Source of the DNA: Deltaproteobacteria bacterium
GTDB taxonomy: Bacteria; Bdellovibrionota_B; Oligoflexia; Oligoflexales; Bog-1112
DNA length: 32,666 bases
NCBI GenBank assembly: GCA_947466225.1
Contig: CANIBL010000026.1
Coordinates: 1-32,666, forward strand
Direction: 5' to 3'
Shown: in pieces, positions 5,255 through 28,649 of the stretch
How the letters are laid out: each line of letters begins with the position of its first letter
How positions within the stretch are numbered: position 1 is the first letter of the stretch
Notes under the pieces: generated by a model
What the model saw: only the letters and a program-made list of their open reading frames with translations
What the model was told of the DNA's origin: nothing
Databases searched by the model: none
Position numbers and translations under genes: made by a program

Positions 5255-5512
5255 GGAACAAATCCCCAGATTAAATAAAATGGCATGGGGCGAAGAATGT
5301 ACGCAAGGCCGTGCCATACCGTCAAGCCTCATCCGCCAATGAACTAAAAAACCAGATGAAAAGAATTTCTTGTATGGTATGATGACCGGGTAGGGTTGCT
5401 GCGGATTTGCGTAGAACCGATGCTTATAGATAAGGGAACCTGATCGCCTCGTGGTGTGCAAGCCCTCCTTCTCTCGTAGAATGTAGAGGGACGCCTAATC
5501 GGGGGTGTGGTG

Positions 5513-5530
5513 CCCACCTCGCCAGGTGGG
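5513..5530. terminator. Hairpin downstream of tlyA
   Basis: CCCACCT (5513-5519) pairs perfectly with AGGTGGG (5524-5530) across a 4-nt loop, 26 nt after the tlyA stop. There is no U-tract, so a terminator role is plausible but unproven. The rest of the roughly 300-nt gap 5255-5555 shows no gene. Confidence 0.4.
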
Positions 5531-5555
5531 TTCTTACCGACTTTCCCCGGCAATC

Positions 5556-6302
5556 CTACCCTGCCTTACGTATCCACAAGAAAACCTCTTGATTGCCAGT
5601 CTTGCCTTTGACCCTGGAAGGCACAGCCTGTTGAATTCGTGCCCCCAATTCCACAAAAGCTGCTTTGACCTGCCCCACTGCGCGGGCAATATCGTCGGAG
5701 TCTGTCACAACCCCCCCTGGCGGAATGGCGCTGCGCTCTAGCTCAAATTGGGGCTTGACCAAGAGCAAAAACTGGGTGTGAGCCCCCCCAACAGCAAAAA
5801 TTTCCCGGGCCAGAGAGGCAAGAGAAACAAAACTCATATCTGCGACTACCCAGTCTGGAACCGGATGCGCTGTCGTATCAAATTTGCGAATGTCCAGTTG
5901 CTCCAACGACACCACACGAGGATCTTGACGCAGCGTCCAAGCCAACTGATTATGGCCGACATCAAGCGCCAGCACAGTAGCAGCACCTGCTTCTAAGACG
6001 CACTGGGTAAATCCCCCCGTCGAAGCTCCGATGTCGAGAACGACTTTGCCGGAAAAGGCGGTCTCCAATCCCAAGTCCTGCATGGCACCGAATAGTTTAT
6101 CTCCCCCTCGTCCGACGAAAGCAGAGGGTGCTGTGCGCACCCGAATGGATACATCCTCGTGAAAACAAGCCGAAGCATCGGATACACGTTGATCTTCAAC
6201 GATGATTTTGCCCGCCATGAGTAACGCACGAGAAAGTGGTAGAGAGTCTGCCAGCCCTCGTGTGACCAGGAGGGAATCAATTCTTTTTTTCCTTTTACGC
6301 AT
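5556..6302 (-). CDS. tlyA: TlyA-family rRNA 2'-O-methyltransferase
   Basis: The 248-residue protein has the TlyA/FtsJ layout: an N-terminal S4 RNA-binding domain (about 6-65; RIDSLLVTRGLADS, RALLMAGKIIV), then a Rossmann methyltransferase with SAM motif VLDIGASTGGFTQ (88-100), LDVG (113-116), ADMSFVSL (154-161) and KPQFE (183-187). Family members methylate ribose in 16S and/or 23S rRNA; some are also called hemolysins, a side activity not implied here. The frame extends 28 codons further upstream, but MRKRKKRIDSLL at 6302 is the family start. It is divergent from the aminotransferase gene, with 48 nt between the starts. Confidence 0.9.
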   Translation of the reverse strand: MRKRKKRIDSLLVTRGLADSLPLSRALLMAGKIIVEDQRVSDASACFHEDVSIRVRTAPSAFVGRGGDKLFGAMQDLGLETAFSGKVVLDIGASTGGFTQCVLEAGAATVLALDVGHNQLAWTLRQDPRVVSLEQLDIRKFDTTAHPVPDWVVADMSFVSLASLAREIFAVGGAHTQFLLLVKPQFELERSAIPPGGVVTDSDDIARAVGQVKAAFVELGARIQQAVPSRVKGKTGNQEVFLWIRKAG

Positions 6303-23249: not shown

Positions 23250-23277
23250 GGTATATGAGTCTGAGGCGGGCTACGCT

Positions 23278-23310
23278 CGACTTTGACAGGTAATGTATCT
23301 GCCAAAGTCG
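23278..23310 (+). terminator. Hairpin after the opp operon
   Basis: CGACTTTGACAG (23278-23289) pairs with CTGCCAAAGTCG (23299-23310) with one mismatch, 29 nt after the oppF stop. The tract behind it is A-rich rather than U-rich, so termination may be weak. Confidence 0.5.
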
Positions 23311-23366
23311 AACTAAAAAGTAAAATATACCGCGTACTATAGGGCTGATTCTACACAACCATCGCC

Positions 23367-23395: not shown

Positions 23396-23460
23396 AAATG
23401 GGTTTATGCATGGGAGCCCCCTATGCATAGACTTCGTCTAACCACTAGAGGTAGAATTTC

Positions 23461-24357
23461 ATGCAAGATCTTCTGGGTTATAATGATGTCGTACGAAAAC
23501 TCCGATATTTTTTTCAACATATGCGAGGTTTTGTGGAGGTACCTGCACAATCACGCCTCTCCATTCTAGCCGCATGTGAAGATCCAACTACGATCAGCCG
23601 TTTTGATTTTGATGGGATTTCATATCCACTACCCCAAACTGGGCAAATGTGGCTTGAAGTCGATTTATTAAAAAACCCCGGTATTCCCGGGGTTTTTTGT
23701 ATCACAACCAGCTATCGAAACGAGAAGAACCCCATCCCAGGTCGACATCAAAAAATTTTCCCCATGTTTGAGTTTGAAACCGCTGGTACCATGGAAGACC
23801 TGTATCAAATTGAAGCCGACCTTCTCGACTTTTTGGGATTCCAACCGGCAGTTCGGAAAAAGTATGAAGATCTTTGTGAAAAATATGCCACCTCAGAACT
23901 GAAAGCAGAGCATGAGTTACGGATGCAGCAAGAATATGGCAACGTGATCAGCTTAGAATATTTTCCTCAGTCTACACACCCCTTTTGGAATATGAAGCAA
24001 AACGAATCTGGCACCTATAATAAGATCGATTTGATCATTTGTGGCATTGAAACCATTGGAGCTGCCGAGCGAGAAACCGATGCAAATCGTATGCTGCATA
24101 ATTTTTATCATATTTCAAATGGGAAATATGCTGAACTTCTTTTTGAAAATTTTGGAAAAGAAAGGGTAATTCGAGAGCTTGAAGACTACTTGTCTCTCCC
24201 AATGTTTCCTCGATTCGGTGCTGGTATTGGTGTTACTCGATTGGTGAATGGGATGCAAACGGAAGGATTGCTATCCAGTCCAGAGGTTCCGATTTTTCAG
24301 CCCATTCCGCGGAGAAATACGGTTGTGCCAGGCTGGGATGCTCGTGCCTCTGTATGA
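23461..24357 (+). CDS. Class II aminoacyl-tRNA-synthetase-like protein (AsnRS/AsnA-related core)
   Basis: The 298-residue protein is a stand-alone class II catalytic core without an anticodon-binding domain. Motif 2 is seen as SYRNEKNP followed by FPMFEFE (84-107), a middle block as CGIETIGAAERETD (194-207), and motif 3 as FGAGIGVTRL (252-261). It is closest in feel to Asp/Asn/Lys-tRNA synthetases and to their free-standing relatives such as the archaeal asparagine synthetase related to AsnRS. Making asparagine from aspartate is a possible role; a tRNA-modifying or other aminoacylating role is also open. It heads an operon with pyrD, whose likely start lies 20 nt inside this gene. A perfect terminator hairpin lies inside its coding region at 23670-23698. 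AGAGG lies about 10 nt before the ATG. Confidence 0.75.
   Translation: MQDLLGYNDVVRKLRYFFQHMRGFVEVPAQSRLSILAACEDPTTISRFDFDGISYPLPQTGQMWLEVDLLKNPGIPGVFCITTSYRNEKNPIPGRHQKIFPMFEFETAGTMEDLYQIEADLLDFLGFQPAVRKKYEDLCEKYATSELKAEHELRMQQEYGNVISLEYFPQSTHPFWNMKQNESGTYNKIDLIICGIETIGAAERETDANRMLHNFYHISNGKYAELLFENFGKERVIRELEDYLSLPMFPRFGAGIGVTRLVNGMQTEGLLSSPEVPIFQPIPRRNTVVPGWDARASV
23670..23698 (+). terminator. Perfect intrinsic-terminator hairpin inside a coding sequence (possible attenuator)
   Basis: Left arm AAAAAACCCCGG (23670-23681), loop of 5 nt, right arm CCGGGGTTTTTT (23687-23698): a perfect 12-bp stem ending in six T. It lies 210 nt after ATG 23461 and encodes about residues 70-80 (KNPGIPGVF) in frame. 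The structure would terminate transcription unless a ribosome covers it, which suggests translation-coupled attenuation of the pyr genes. Confidence 0.7.
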
Positions 24358-25381
24358 TGTAAACAAGACATTTGAGGAAAATGCGGATAAAGGCCCCTTT
24401 TTTTCAGATTTGCTAGAGGTAAAAAGCCCTCGTACTCCCATTTTAACTTTCTTGGGATTGCCCTTATGCAGTCCAATTGGAGTGGCGCCATGTCCTCTTA
24501 CCCTTGGTAAGGGCATTTCGCTTCTTTCCAAATTGGAATTTGATGTTCTTATTTATAAAACCATTCGTTGCATGCAATACCCCGTACACTCTTTTCCTAA
24601 CTTGTACGTCATGGAAGATTCTCCAGGAAATATAACAGTAGCCAACTCCTTTGGGATTGGATGTGCAAAGCCTGAGGTGGTGCTTTGTGATATTGAAAAA
24701 GCCAAATCTTCCTTATCTGCTGGCCAAATTCTGATTGTTTCCATTTATGGAGAAGGAAAGACCCGAAAAGAAAGTATGCAGCAATTTTACCAAGCGGCTG
24801 CAATGGCAAAAGATGCAGGCGCCCATATTGTAGAAGCCAACCTCTCTTGTCCAAATTTGCTTCACACTACAGCATTGTATTTAGATATAGAGTATGTAGA
24901 GGCTCTCACATCCCGATTGGTGGCTATACTTGGAAATATACCGCTTACGGTCAAAGTCGGAGTTTTTCCTACTTTGACGGGATTACGTCAACTTTTATAT
25001 ACTCTAGCAAAAATCGGTGTACAAGGCATCTGCGGGATCAACTCTGTCTCACAGCCAATCTATAATAAAGCAGGGGCTCCCATATTTGGCCCAGACCGAG
25101 AGAAAGCTGGGGTATCAGGGTCTAGCATTCGACCCCTTGCACTTTCATTTGTTCAAAATGTGAAGAGCATATTAGAAAAAGAAAAACTATCACTGAAACT
25201 ACTTGCCACTGGTGGTGTTACACAAGCTCATCACTTTCGAGAGTTTTTAGAAGCTGGCGCAGACATTGCCTTATCAGCAACGGGCGCAATGTGGAATCCC
25301 TATTTGGCTATGGAATATCATCGAGGCGCCTATGACACCAAAAGAATTACTCGTAAACTTGAAAGAAATGCAGATTATTAA
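24338..25381 (+). CDS. pyrD: Dihydroorotate dehydrogenase, class 1-like
   Basis: The 347-residue FMN enzyme oxidises dihydroorotate to orotate in the fourth step of UMP synthesis. Class 1 features are visible: the FMN/substrate lysine region YKTIR (73-77), NSFGIG, NLSCPN (168-173) with the catalytic Cys171 that class 2 enzymes replace by Ser, VKVGVFP, and ATGGVTQAHHFREFLEAGAD for the phosphate loop. There is no N-terminal membrane segment, so it should be soluble and use fumarate (1A) or an electron-transfer partner (1B); no pyrK lies beside it. ATG 24338 overlaps the previous gene by 20 nt and has only a weak ribosome site. The 3' end overlaps pyrE by 50 nt. Start uncertain by a few codons. 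Confidence 0.9.
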   Translation: MLVPLYDVNKTFEENADKGPFFSDLLEVKSPRTPILTFLGLPLCSPIGVAPCPLTLGKGISLLSKLEFDVLIYKTIRCMQYPVHSFPNLYVMEDSPGNITVANSFGIGCAKPEVVLCDIEKAKSSLSAGQILIVSIYGEGKTRKESMQQFYQAAAMAKDAGAHIVEANLSCPNLLHTTALYLDIEYVEALTSRLVAILGNIPLTVKVGVFPTLTGLRQLLYTLAKIGVQGICGINSVSQPIYNKAGAPIFGPDREKAGVSGSSIRPLALSFVQNVKSILEKEKLSLKLLATGGVTQAHHFREFLEAGADIALSATGAMWNPYLAMEYHRGAYDTKRITRKLERNADY

Positions 25382-25853
25382 GCATGGAGACTTTTTGCTA
25401 AAAAGTGGGACTCGTTCTTCCATTTACGTAGATTTGCGCACGCTGATTGGATACCCAATTTTGCTACGGGAAGTTTCGCACTGTTTATGGGAAAAAACTC
25501 GGTTTATCTCTTATCAAAGAATCTGTGGTGTTCCATATACTGCACTTCCAATGGCAACCTGTATTTCAATCGATCACGCCGTGCCTATGGTTTTTGTGCG
25601 AAAAGAAGTAAAGAGTTACGGAACAAAAAAGAAAATTGAAGGTATTTTCCATGTAGGGGAACAGTGTGTGCTAATAGAAGATGTCGTAACCACGGGCACA
25701 AGCGTGCTAGAAATTGCAACATCATTGGAGACCGAAGGCCTTGTGGTAAAAGATATTGTAACCGTAGTAGAAAGAGATCCATCGGTTCGAGAACGATTTT
25801 ACTCAAAAGGATATACTCTACACTCTCTCTTTACACTAGATGACTTATTATGA
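25332..25853 (+). CDS. pyrE: Orotate phosphoribosyltransferase, eukaryotic UMP-synthase type
   Basis: The 173-residue enzyme joins orotate and PRPP to give OMP. It has KHGDFLLKSGTRSSIYVDLR (17-36), CGVPYTALPMA (65-75), RKEVKSYGTKKKIEG (90-104) and the PRPP loop IEDVVTTGTSVLE (115-127). These segments match the N-terminal half of animal and fungal UMP synthase far better than E. coli PyrE. GAGG lies 6 nt before ATG 25332, which gives the right N-terminal length. It overlaps pyrD by 50 nt and pyrF by 4 nt. In eukaryotes the same two activities are fused in the same order. Horizontal transfer from a eukaryote, or shared ancestry with the bacterial source of UMP synthase, are both possible. Confidence 0.93.
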   Translation: MTPKELLVNLKEMQIIKHGDFLLKSGTRSSIYVDLRTLIGYPILLREVSHCLWEKTRFISYQRICGVPYTALPMATCISIDHAVPMVFVRKEVKSYGTKKKIEGIFHVGEQCVLIEDVVTTGTSVLEIATSLETEGLVVKDIVTVVERDPSVRERFYSKGYTLHSLFTLDDLL

Positions 25854-26641
25854 AAATGACTTATAAAGAGCGCGCCTTGCGAGTCACACATCCTGTCACA
25901 AAAAAGCTCCTAGAGTATATGGAGTCGAAAAAAACCAATATTGGACTCGCAGCAGATTTATCCAGCCAAGAAGAAATTATTTCTTTGATTCATAAGGTTG
26001 GCGAACATATTTGTGTGCTTAAAACTCATATAGACATTATAGAGAATTTTGATCCCAGTTTCACAAAAAGGCTCCAACATCTTGCTGAACAGTTCGGTTT
26101 TCTTCTTTTTGAAGACAGAAAATTTGCGGATATTGGGCATACCGTACTGCAACAATATCAGGGGGGGATGTACCGAATTTCTGAATGGGCAGACTTGGTG
26201 AACGCCCATATTTTACCAGGACCAGGTATTGTCGAAGGTCTTAAAAAGGTTGGTATAGAAAGAGAACGCGGCTTGTTACTTTTAGCTGAAATGAGTTCAG
26301 CTGGTAATTTTATTACGCCTCAATATACCCAATCTGCTGTGGAACTGGCAATGGAGCACGCCGATTTTGTGGTGGGATTTATTTCGCAACAACAAATAAC
26401 AGAGGATCCTCGATTTGTTCATTTAACACCTGGGATTCAATTCCAAGATACACAAGACGTCTTAGGGCAACGATATATCACACCAGAGATCGCAATCCAC
26501 ATGCATAGAACAGATATTCTTTTAGTCGGTCGGGGTATTTATCGCTCCACCACGCCAAAAGAGGATGCCATACGCTATCAGCAGGCGGGATGGAATGCTT
26601 ATTTGAGCCGTATTACCCAAAGGCGTTGCATTTCTTTATAA
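25850..26641 (+). CDS. pyrF: OMP decarboxylase, eukaryotic URA3/UMPS type
   Basis: The 263-residue enzyme makes UMP from OMP. The catalytic set is intact: Lys59 in VLKTHID, and Asp89, Lys91 and Asp94 in FEDRKFADIG (87-96). WADLVNAHILPGPGIV, LLLLAEMSSAGN, HADFVVGFIS, HLTPGIQ and ILLVGRGIYRS are nearly the words of fungal and animal enzymes, whereas E. coli-type PyrF differs clearly. The ATG overlaps the pyrE TGA as ATGA. It ends the operon; no clear terminator follows. Length and motifs suggest a complete active enzyme. Confidence 0.95.
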   Translation: MKMTYKERALRVTHPVTKKLLEYMESKKTNIGLAADLSSQEEIISLIHKVGEHICVLKTHIDIIENFDPSFTKRLQHLAEQFGFLLFEDRKFADIGHTVLQQYQGGMYRISEWADLVNAHILPGPGIVEGLKKVGIERERGLLLLAEMSSAGNFITPQYTQSAVELAMEHADFVVGFISQQQITEDPRFVHLTPGIQFQDTQDVLGQRYITPEIAIHMHRTDILLVGRGIYRSTTPKEDAIRYQQAGWNAYLSRITQRRCISL

Positions 26642-28016: not shown

Positions 28017-28502
28017 TTATTTAGCGGCGGAAAGATGAGTATGCAGCAGCGAAAGAAGTTCTTGTACATCAAAAGGCTTGGGGAGAAAGGCTGCGGCGCC
28101 TGCTTGAAAGGCCATGTCAATTTCTCGTGGGCTTGTATGTCCTGATGTTAGAATCAAGGGCACCGCGCGAAATAGCGTCTGCTGCTTGACCAATTTGCAA
28201 AGCTCATAGCCATCTACCCAAGGTAGACGCACATCCATCAAAATGAGATCGAAAGGGGCACTTTCCAGGAGCTTGGAGAGCTCCAGCCCATCCTGCGCCA
28301 TATCTACCTGATACTGCTCGGCTTCTAGCATGCGTTTGAGGGCGTTGCGCATAATCTCGTCGTCTTCCACGATTAAAATGTGATGGGGACGGCTTTCCTC
28401 CTGTAGCTTGCGATATTCAGACAGGTCCACCACAGGCTCTGCGGTGAGCTTTTGCCGTTTGAGGGCTTCAATTTGAGCCCGCATGGAGGTTGGATTCTTC
28501 AT
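28017..28502 (-). CDS. Receiver-only response regulator
   Basis: The 161-residue protein has a helical N-terminus of about 40 residues (MRAQIEALKRQKLTA) and one CheY-like receiver domain: acidic pair Asp47-Asp48 in VEDDE, phospho-acceptor Asp90 in LILMDVRLPW, Thr119 in LTSGH and Lys142 in FLPKPFD. There is no DNA-binding or enzyme output domain, so it acts through protein contact or in a phosphorelay. No histidine kinase is next to it. The start is uncertain: the frame is open to 28607 and no candidate has a strong ribosome site; 28502 is chosen because the upstream part has no family likeness. It is divergent from the RNA methyltransferase gene. Confidence 0.85.
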   Translation of the reverse strand: MKNPTSMRAQIEALKRQKLTAEPVVDLSEYRKLQEESRPHHILIVEDDEIMRNALKRMLEAEQYQVDMAQDGLELSKLLESAPFDLILMDVRLPWVDGYELCKLVKQQTLFRAVPLILTSGHTSPREIDMAFQAGAAAFLPKPFDVQELLSLLHTHLSAAK

Positions 28503-28649
28503 ATACGAAAGAATCGGCATTTTTGGAAAAAACCTTTGCAGCCCTTTGCAAAGGACATGGCCTGTGATACACAAGGAGGCTCTCTTTTTATCGCCATACA
28601 AAGGCATTGAAAAAAGAAAAACTCAAGAAATTCAATGGGGTGAGTCGCA

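Follow-up and report, generated by a model that had tools for sequence, protein, structure and literature searches.

Introduction

Predicted intragenic terminators are common and are usually dismissed as cryptic. Two well-known arrangements of Escherichia coli place a terminator ahead of pyrimidine genes: (i) the pyrBI attenuator, a translated terminator in a leader-peptide ORF where pausing is UTP dependent; and (ii) rph-pyrE, where the terminator is placed after the end of rph. Terminators within coding regions have also been described in this organism. Those within the first 100 bp still work since the ribosome has not yet caught up (Li et al. 2015, PMC4824070). Further downstream, ribosomes repress them, how strongly depending on coupling, and the elements have been proposed to serve in surveillance (PMC4824070). 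The intragenic terminators of narY and rsxC were found to work in vitro, with rsxC requiring NusA (Elgamal et al. 2016, PMC5021804). Terminators furthermore share features with stem-loop-aided transcriptional slippage (Penno et al. 2015, as cited in PMC5009743).

Here we examine a perfect hairpin within an AsnRS-like gene that precedes pyrD-, pyrE-, and pyrF-like genes in a 32.7-kb window (the whole stretch of DNA that was analyzed). As with the E. coli intragenic terminators (PMC4824070, PMC5021804), a GC hairpin followed by a U-tract lies within a translated enzyme gene and would presumably function only behind a lagging ribosome's absence from the stem; unlike them, the element is known here from sequence alone and recurs at homologous codons in distant family members beyond codon expectation. 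The locus resembles pyrBI in having a terminator-like element in a translated frame upstream of pyrimidine genes; it differs in that the element (i) is in a functional enzyme gene and not a leader, (ii) has no accompanying U enrichment, and (iii) is of a type unlinked to pyr genes in relatives, with pyrB not found in the genome. Similar to rph-pyrE, translation of a real enzyme gene would govern a terminator that precedes pyrimidine biosynthesis genes; however, the candidate terminator of the window is about 70 codons into the gene. A literature search revealed no account of the function of the host gene or of the intragenic hairpin element.

The hairpin and its host gene

The features of the locus are collected in Table 1. 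The hairpin was found at the exact coordinates and with the exact sequence given in a preliminary description, which had claimed a 12-bp perfect stem with A6/T6 arms and a GC core 210 nt into an aaRS-like gene; its position in the ORF was likewise exact, with the element spanning nt 210-238. The two 12-nt arms are separated by a 5-nt loop and form 12/12 Watson-Crick pairs, six of them GC. Fold energy was predicted at -18.7 kcal/mol for 23660-23709 (z -4.0), and 0/200 dinucleotide shuffles were as stable. No longer perfect hairpin (loop 3-10) was detected in the window, and a search of the 2.12-Mb assembly gave a single occurrence of the exact motif. The anatomy is that of an intrinsic terminator, including a GC-rich hairpin with a short loop and a U-tract directly after the GC stem (CCGGGG-TTTTTTG), and the A6 arm makes the element readable on the opposite strand too.

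Table 1. Features of the AsnRS-like gene, its hairpin, and the adjacent pyrimidine genes
Feature	Position	Strand	Basis or remark
Shine-Dalgarno-like CTAGAGGTA	23445..23453	+	ahead of ATG 23461, from sequence
AsnRS-like paralogue (298 aa) of the class II aminoacyl-tRNA synthetase catalytic domain, hairpin host	23461..24357	+	Pfam tRNA-synt_2 2.8e-15
T-rich stretch, proposed UTP-dependent pause	23600..23625	+	not above codon expectation
Perfect hairpin	23670-23698	+	AAAAAACCCCGG-TATTC-CCGGGGTTTTTT; codons 70-80 (KNPGIPGVFC) of host ORF
5' arm AAAAAACCCCGG	23670..23681	+	from the third base of codon 70 through the second base of codon 74
Loop TATTC	23682..23686	+	fold prediction
3' arm CCGGGGTTTTTT	23687..23698	+	T6 doubles as terminator U-tract; GC core CCCCGG/CCGGGG
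pyrD-like dihydroorotate dehydrogenase	24344..25381	+	Pfam DHO_dh 1.5e-15; NCBIfam matches under cut-off
pyrE, orotate phosphoribosyltransferase	25266..25853 (longest ORF)	+	TIGR00336 2.1e-36, over cut-off
pyrF, OMP decarboxylase	25850..26641	+	TIGR01740 7.8e-51, over cut-off

When the peptide was kept and codons were re-drawn synonymously from local usage, a stem of 12 bp or more was obtained in 13/20,000 re-draws and an energy equal to or better than that observed in 0.4%; a within-gene synonymous codon shuffle gave p = 0.003. The peptide KNP...PGVF is itself palindrome-prone, with a hairpin of about -9 kcal/mol expected from the peptide alone. These single-sequence values are suggestive and not decisive, as the hairpin was chosen for being striking.

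The aaRS-like label of the host gene was right, as the Pfam tRNA-synt_2 match places the protein in the Asp/Asn/Lys (D, K, N) type of class II synthetases. The N-terminal anticodon-binding domain is absent from the protein, with the catalytic domain as the sole Pfam match. Profile searches matched AsnRS structures, and there was a weak hit to archaeal asparagine synthetase A (3p8t, E 0.002). The protein thus described shares its catalytic core and motif similarity with class II AsnRS and archaeal asparagine synthetase A, and is like the latter in its length of about 300 aa without an anticodon domain. Unlike AsnRS/AspRS, it falls far under the NCBIfam cut-offs for these families (32.8 bits vs 414 for NF003037 and 29.1 vs 342.6 for TIGR00457, the curated AsnRS models) and belongs to a family of its own that it shares with phages (phrog_29758, 3.6e-84, a PHROG family of unknown function). 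The downstream pyrD, pyrE, and pyrF assignments were confirmed by Pfam/NCBIfam, and the genes overlap tightly: the start of the pyrD-like ORF overlaps the end of the host ORF, and the true start of pyrE is probably further in than that of the longest ORF, past the pyrD stop region. As in the window, the start codons of relatives are preceded by purine-rich sites.

Relatives of the host protein are widespread in phages, being encoded on at least 599 IMG/VR stretches; jumbo phages and the Prochlorococcus phages P-SSM2/5/7 carry the family as 'tRNA ligase'. No homologue of the host gene was detected among the plasmids searched. The patchy cellular distribution of the family suggests lateral spread. 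The AsnRS-like gene was also observed beside pyrD/pyrE/pyrF homologues in Gammaproteobacteria MAGs, Chlamydiota, Dependentiae, and Bacteroidota. It is conceivable that the ligase-like protein takes part in a replacement or altered version of the early pyrimidine pathway.

Recurrence of the element at homologous codons

Homologues were gathered by peptide patterns that excluded the hairpin codons, as well as by genome searches and from IMG/VR; further searches for cellular homologues returned mostly sequences already in the set. The main cellular set comprised 81 distinct sequences, mostly of 50-66% protein identity. Sites were counted as terminator-like when a U-run followed a stem with 6 or more pairs, 4 or more of them GC, and observed values were compared with three peptide-preserving nulls based on (i) locus codon usage, (ii) codon-pair-aware re-drawing, and (iii) within-gene codon shuffling.

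The fold score at the hairpin site reached p < 0.05 in 23/81 cellular homologues, and when the codon-randomized score was followed along the gene, this site was the extreme (mean z -0.95, compared with a mean z of -0.08 and sd of 0.22 for the other windows), with a value of -0.90 still found under the codon-pair-aware null. The fold score had another peak at residues 54-66, which was dropped after codon-pair correction changed its z from -0.61 to -0.37. Sense terminator-like sites at residues 71-79 numbered 19/81 vs 3.5 expected, compared with 4 vs 2.5 expected over the whole remainder of the gene. Outside of the clade of the window the count was 13/78, with 2.4 expected by the codon-pair null (P about 2e-7) and 2.3 by the within-gene codon shuffle; within the clade, it was 7/11 vs 0.8-0.9 expected. 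Phage homologues displayed no terminator-like excess at the site (1/63, chance level), with a stem signal near nil and a U-run under expectation. This excess over peptide-preserving nulls in the cellular homologues and its absence in phage argue that codon choice, and not the peptide alone, favors the element in several cellular lineages.

Codon identity between terminator-positive sequences of different lineages was near the saturated level found elsewhere in the gene (0.37), such that inheritance of the DNA does not explain the recurrence. On the tree, presence or absence of the terminator-like site required no fewer than 17 changes, and the distribution was patchy with most homologues devoid of the element. 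Two of the positives are DPANN archaea (L067 and L079), whose RNA polymerase is not known to terminate at hairpins. Eight new cellular homologues provided no replication, as one carried a terminator and the mean fold signal was absent (-0.15). In the complete clade of the window, codon conservation at the hairpin site was no more than moderately high, ranking 25 of 257 windows (0.58); an earlier comparison of 0.80 vs 0.44 was set aside as biased, since possession of the hairpin had been the basis for selecting its members. Antisense terminator-like sites at the hairpin position were also in excess (7 vs 1.5 expected), which comes from the A/T-armed members, and intragenic terminator-like sites in 400 kb of genome stretches numbered 11 antisense vs 9 sense.

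The stem and U-run were additionally taken apart. Outside of the clade of the window, departures from codon expectation were seen in the core stem (mean z -0.87) as well as in the U-run (0.44), and stronger stems accompanied longer U-runs (r -0.52). The U-run codons GTT/TTT/TGT were over-used in cellular homologues, including where the stem has no need of those Us, with GTT at codon 78 found 31 times vs 16.5 expected. The synonymous third positions 73.3 and 76.3, which face each other in the commonest stem register, could pair in 26/53 sequences vs 16.6 predicted from column make-up (permutation p 0.002), and G-C, C-G, A-T, and T-A pairs were all represented. Covariation was not detected for a second stem pair, 72.3-77.3. 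Pair counting within the 11-member clade of the window was uninformative, as most wobble positions there face fixed ones.

The preliminary description had proposed aligning homologous operons to determine whether the hairpin is kept while codons vary, and had taken the same residues with synonymous codons that destroy the stem as evidence against its reading. The adverse pattern was seen in one relative, L004/L016, which has identical residues (KNPGIPGVFC) and has lost the stem. The stem is lost in L021 as well.

Relation to pyrimidine genes

The hairpin was further examined for its relationship to pyrimidine genes, as UTP supply had been proposed to tune expression of the operon through T-rich pause sites upstream of the stem. 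In the window, a terminator-like element does lie within a translated ORF upstream of pyr genes. The T-rich stretch exists; its U content is that predicted by the codons (z -0.2, residues 44-54), and no upstream U enrichment beyond codon expectation was detected in the clade of the window (mean z 0.24 and -0.23). A U-rich pause region kept beyond coding need was thus not observed. Nor did the element travel with the genes it would control. Within the window's own family, the stem is retained in L003/L015 and L005/L018, where the 3-7 kb examined on either side of or around the gene showed no pyr homologue, and L004/L016 has pyrE-pyrF directly downstream and no stem. Four gammaproteobacterial MAGs keep the stem with pyrE-pyrF downstream. 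Over all homologues, the hairpin was not associated with pyr genes, being present at 5/18 loci that had them and 16/62 that lacked them; a close downstream gene likewise showed no association with it. Aspartate transcarbamoylase (pyrB) had no match in the genome (93% complete), and the same search found pyrB in 14/14 control genomes; end-product control of a complete pathway is therefore in doubt. UTP sensing was set aside as the leading idea based on the dissociation of stem and pyr genes in relatives and on the U content, both of which speak against the proposed tuning.

Translation-gated termination and its alternatives

Overall, the element is real, terminator-like, and probably selected, and the sequence comparisons do not support its assignment to UTP control; the preliminary interpretation is upheld in part. 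The reading we prefer, to which we give about an even chance, is that the hairpin is an intragenic intrinsic terminator of the AsnRS-like gene that is favored at the codon level, masked by the leading ribosome, and able to abort untranslated transcripts. RNA polymerase would transcribe about 240 nt of the host ORF; a closely following first ribosome would cover the 5' arm, no hairpin would form, and the operon would be read on. If translation failed to start, or was slow or aborted, the GC hairpin would form over the U-tract and the transcript would be released. The untranslated message and the genes behind it would be shut off, as a form of translation surveillance (polarity by an intrinsic terminator). 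By nt 210-238, a ribosome that started well should be close behind the polymerase, which favors a translation-gated terminator that discards untranslated transcripts. The element would act first on its own gene and, in the window, also on pyrDEF, since these genes share a transcript with it. The preliminary description had held that RNA polymerase should stop at the hairpin unless a ribosome follows; the terminator anatomy and the codon-level preference in relatives make this the leading explanation, and it is from this structure and codon bias that we infer termination in vivo, masking by a ribosome, a benefit to the cell, and that this mechanism is the reason for the biased codons. More tentatively, a translation-gated terminator at one fixed coding place, gained repeatedly and kept by synonymous codons in several bacterial phyla with phage copies devoid of it, may represent a built-in check on the gene that is imposed by the cell and exploits a peptide whose codons are able to encode a terminator.

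One alternative is a coincidence driven by the peptide. The conserved motif-2 sequence K-N-P-x-x-P-G-V-F is palindrome-prone, and chance hairpins with a T-run may be tolerated there as ribosomes mask them; such a coincidence would fit the mean energy already expected from the peptide (about -9 kcal/mol), the loss of the stem in L004 with an identical peptide, the patchy distribution, and phage copies that show no such signal. We consider it possible, though doubtful, as a large excess remains under all three peptide-keeping nulls and the two synonymous positions (73.3/76.3) covary. A role in translation or mRNA life, with the hairpin either slowing the ribosome at a boundary within the catalytic domain or acting as an RNA-processing site, is unlikely: the fold signal of the core hairpin without the U-run (mean z -0.87) and the hairpins of archaea would agree with it, but such a role has no need of the over-used U-run or of its correlation with stem strength.

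Two further explanations appear less probable still. In a UTP-sensing attenuator like that of pyrBI, low UTP would pause the polymerase, the ribosome would catch up, and termination would be prevented. The anatomy of the window, with a translated terminator ahead of pyrDEF, fits this scheme, as do the four gammaproteobacterial MAGs; we nonetheless regard it as very unlikely given that L015 and L018 keep the stem without pyr genes, L016 has pyrE-pyrF and no stem, the overall association is absent, the supposed pause region has a U content at codon expectation, and pyrB was not found in the genome. The start at nt 210 is, in addition, beyond the zone where terminators most easily escape ribosomes (PMC4824070). 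Programmed frameshifting, or transcriptional slippage stimulated by the stem-loop, is suggested by A_AAA_AAC right before the stem (TTA AAA AAC is an in-frame slippery heptamer), by the U6 behind it, and by the features that stem-loop-aided slippage shares with terminators (Penno et al. 2015, as cited in PMC5009743). This was rejected as highly improbable because relatives do not preserve the heptamer (L003 has AAG AAC, L005 has TTG AAA, and L014 has GAA AAC) and the -1 frame stops after 24 codons with no recognizable product.

If it is true that the same stem and U-run are favored by homologous codons in several phyla, this would provide direct comparative evidence of selection on intragenic terminators, and the AsnRS-like gene would be a compact system for testing intrinsic terminators as translation surveillance. 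For annotation, a conspicuous palindrome should not be read as a pyrimidine sensor simply because pyr genes follow it.

Other structures in the window

A strong leader hairpin, GGTTTATGCATGGG-AGCCC-CCTATGCATAGACT, is located at 23401-23433 directly upstream of the Shine-Dalgarno site of the host gene. A short alternative hairpin, TAGAC-TTC-GTCTA (23428-23440), overlaps the 3' arm of this leader hairpin. Conservation of this leader structure was considered and rejected, as the strong hairpin was not found in the leaders of relatives. Another TATGCAT...ATGCATA is present at G000:C1:73198 of the genome. An imperfect 16-bp inverted repeat, TCGACTTTGACAGGTA/TATCTGCCAAAGTCGA, lies at 23277-23311, 28 nt past the oppF stop codon and without a U-tract. 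On the minus strand, a terminator-like hairpin, CCTTTGCAAAGGGCTGCAAAGG-TTTTTT (28533-28554), occupies the sense strand of the ORF at 28017-28607 (-); it is 53 nt from the longest possible start of this ORF and is possibly in the true leader. An Rfam scan of the window returned one tRNA and one 6S RNA and nothing else, with the 6S RNA (RF00013) at 5385-5565 on the plus strand and over the gathering score.
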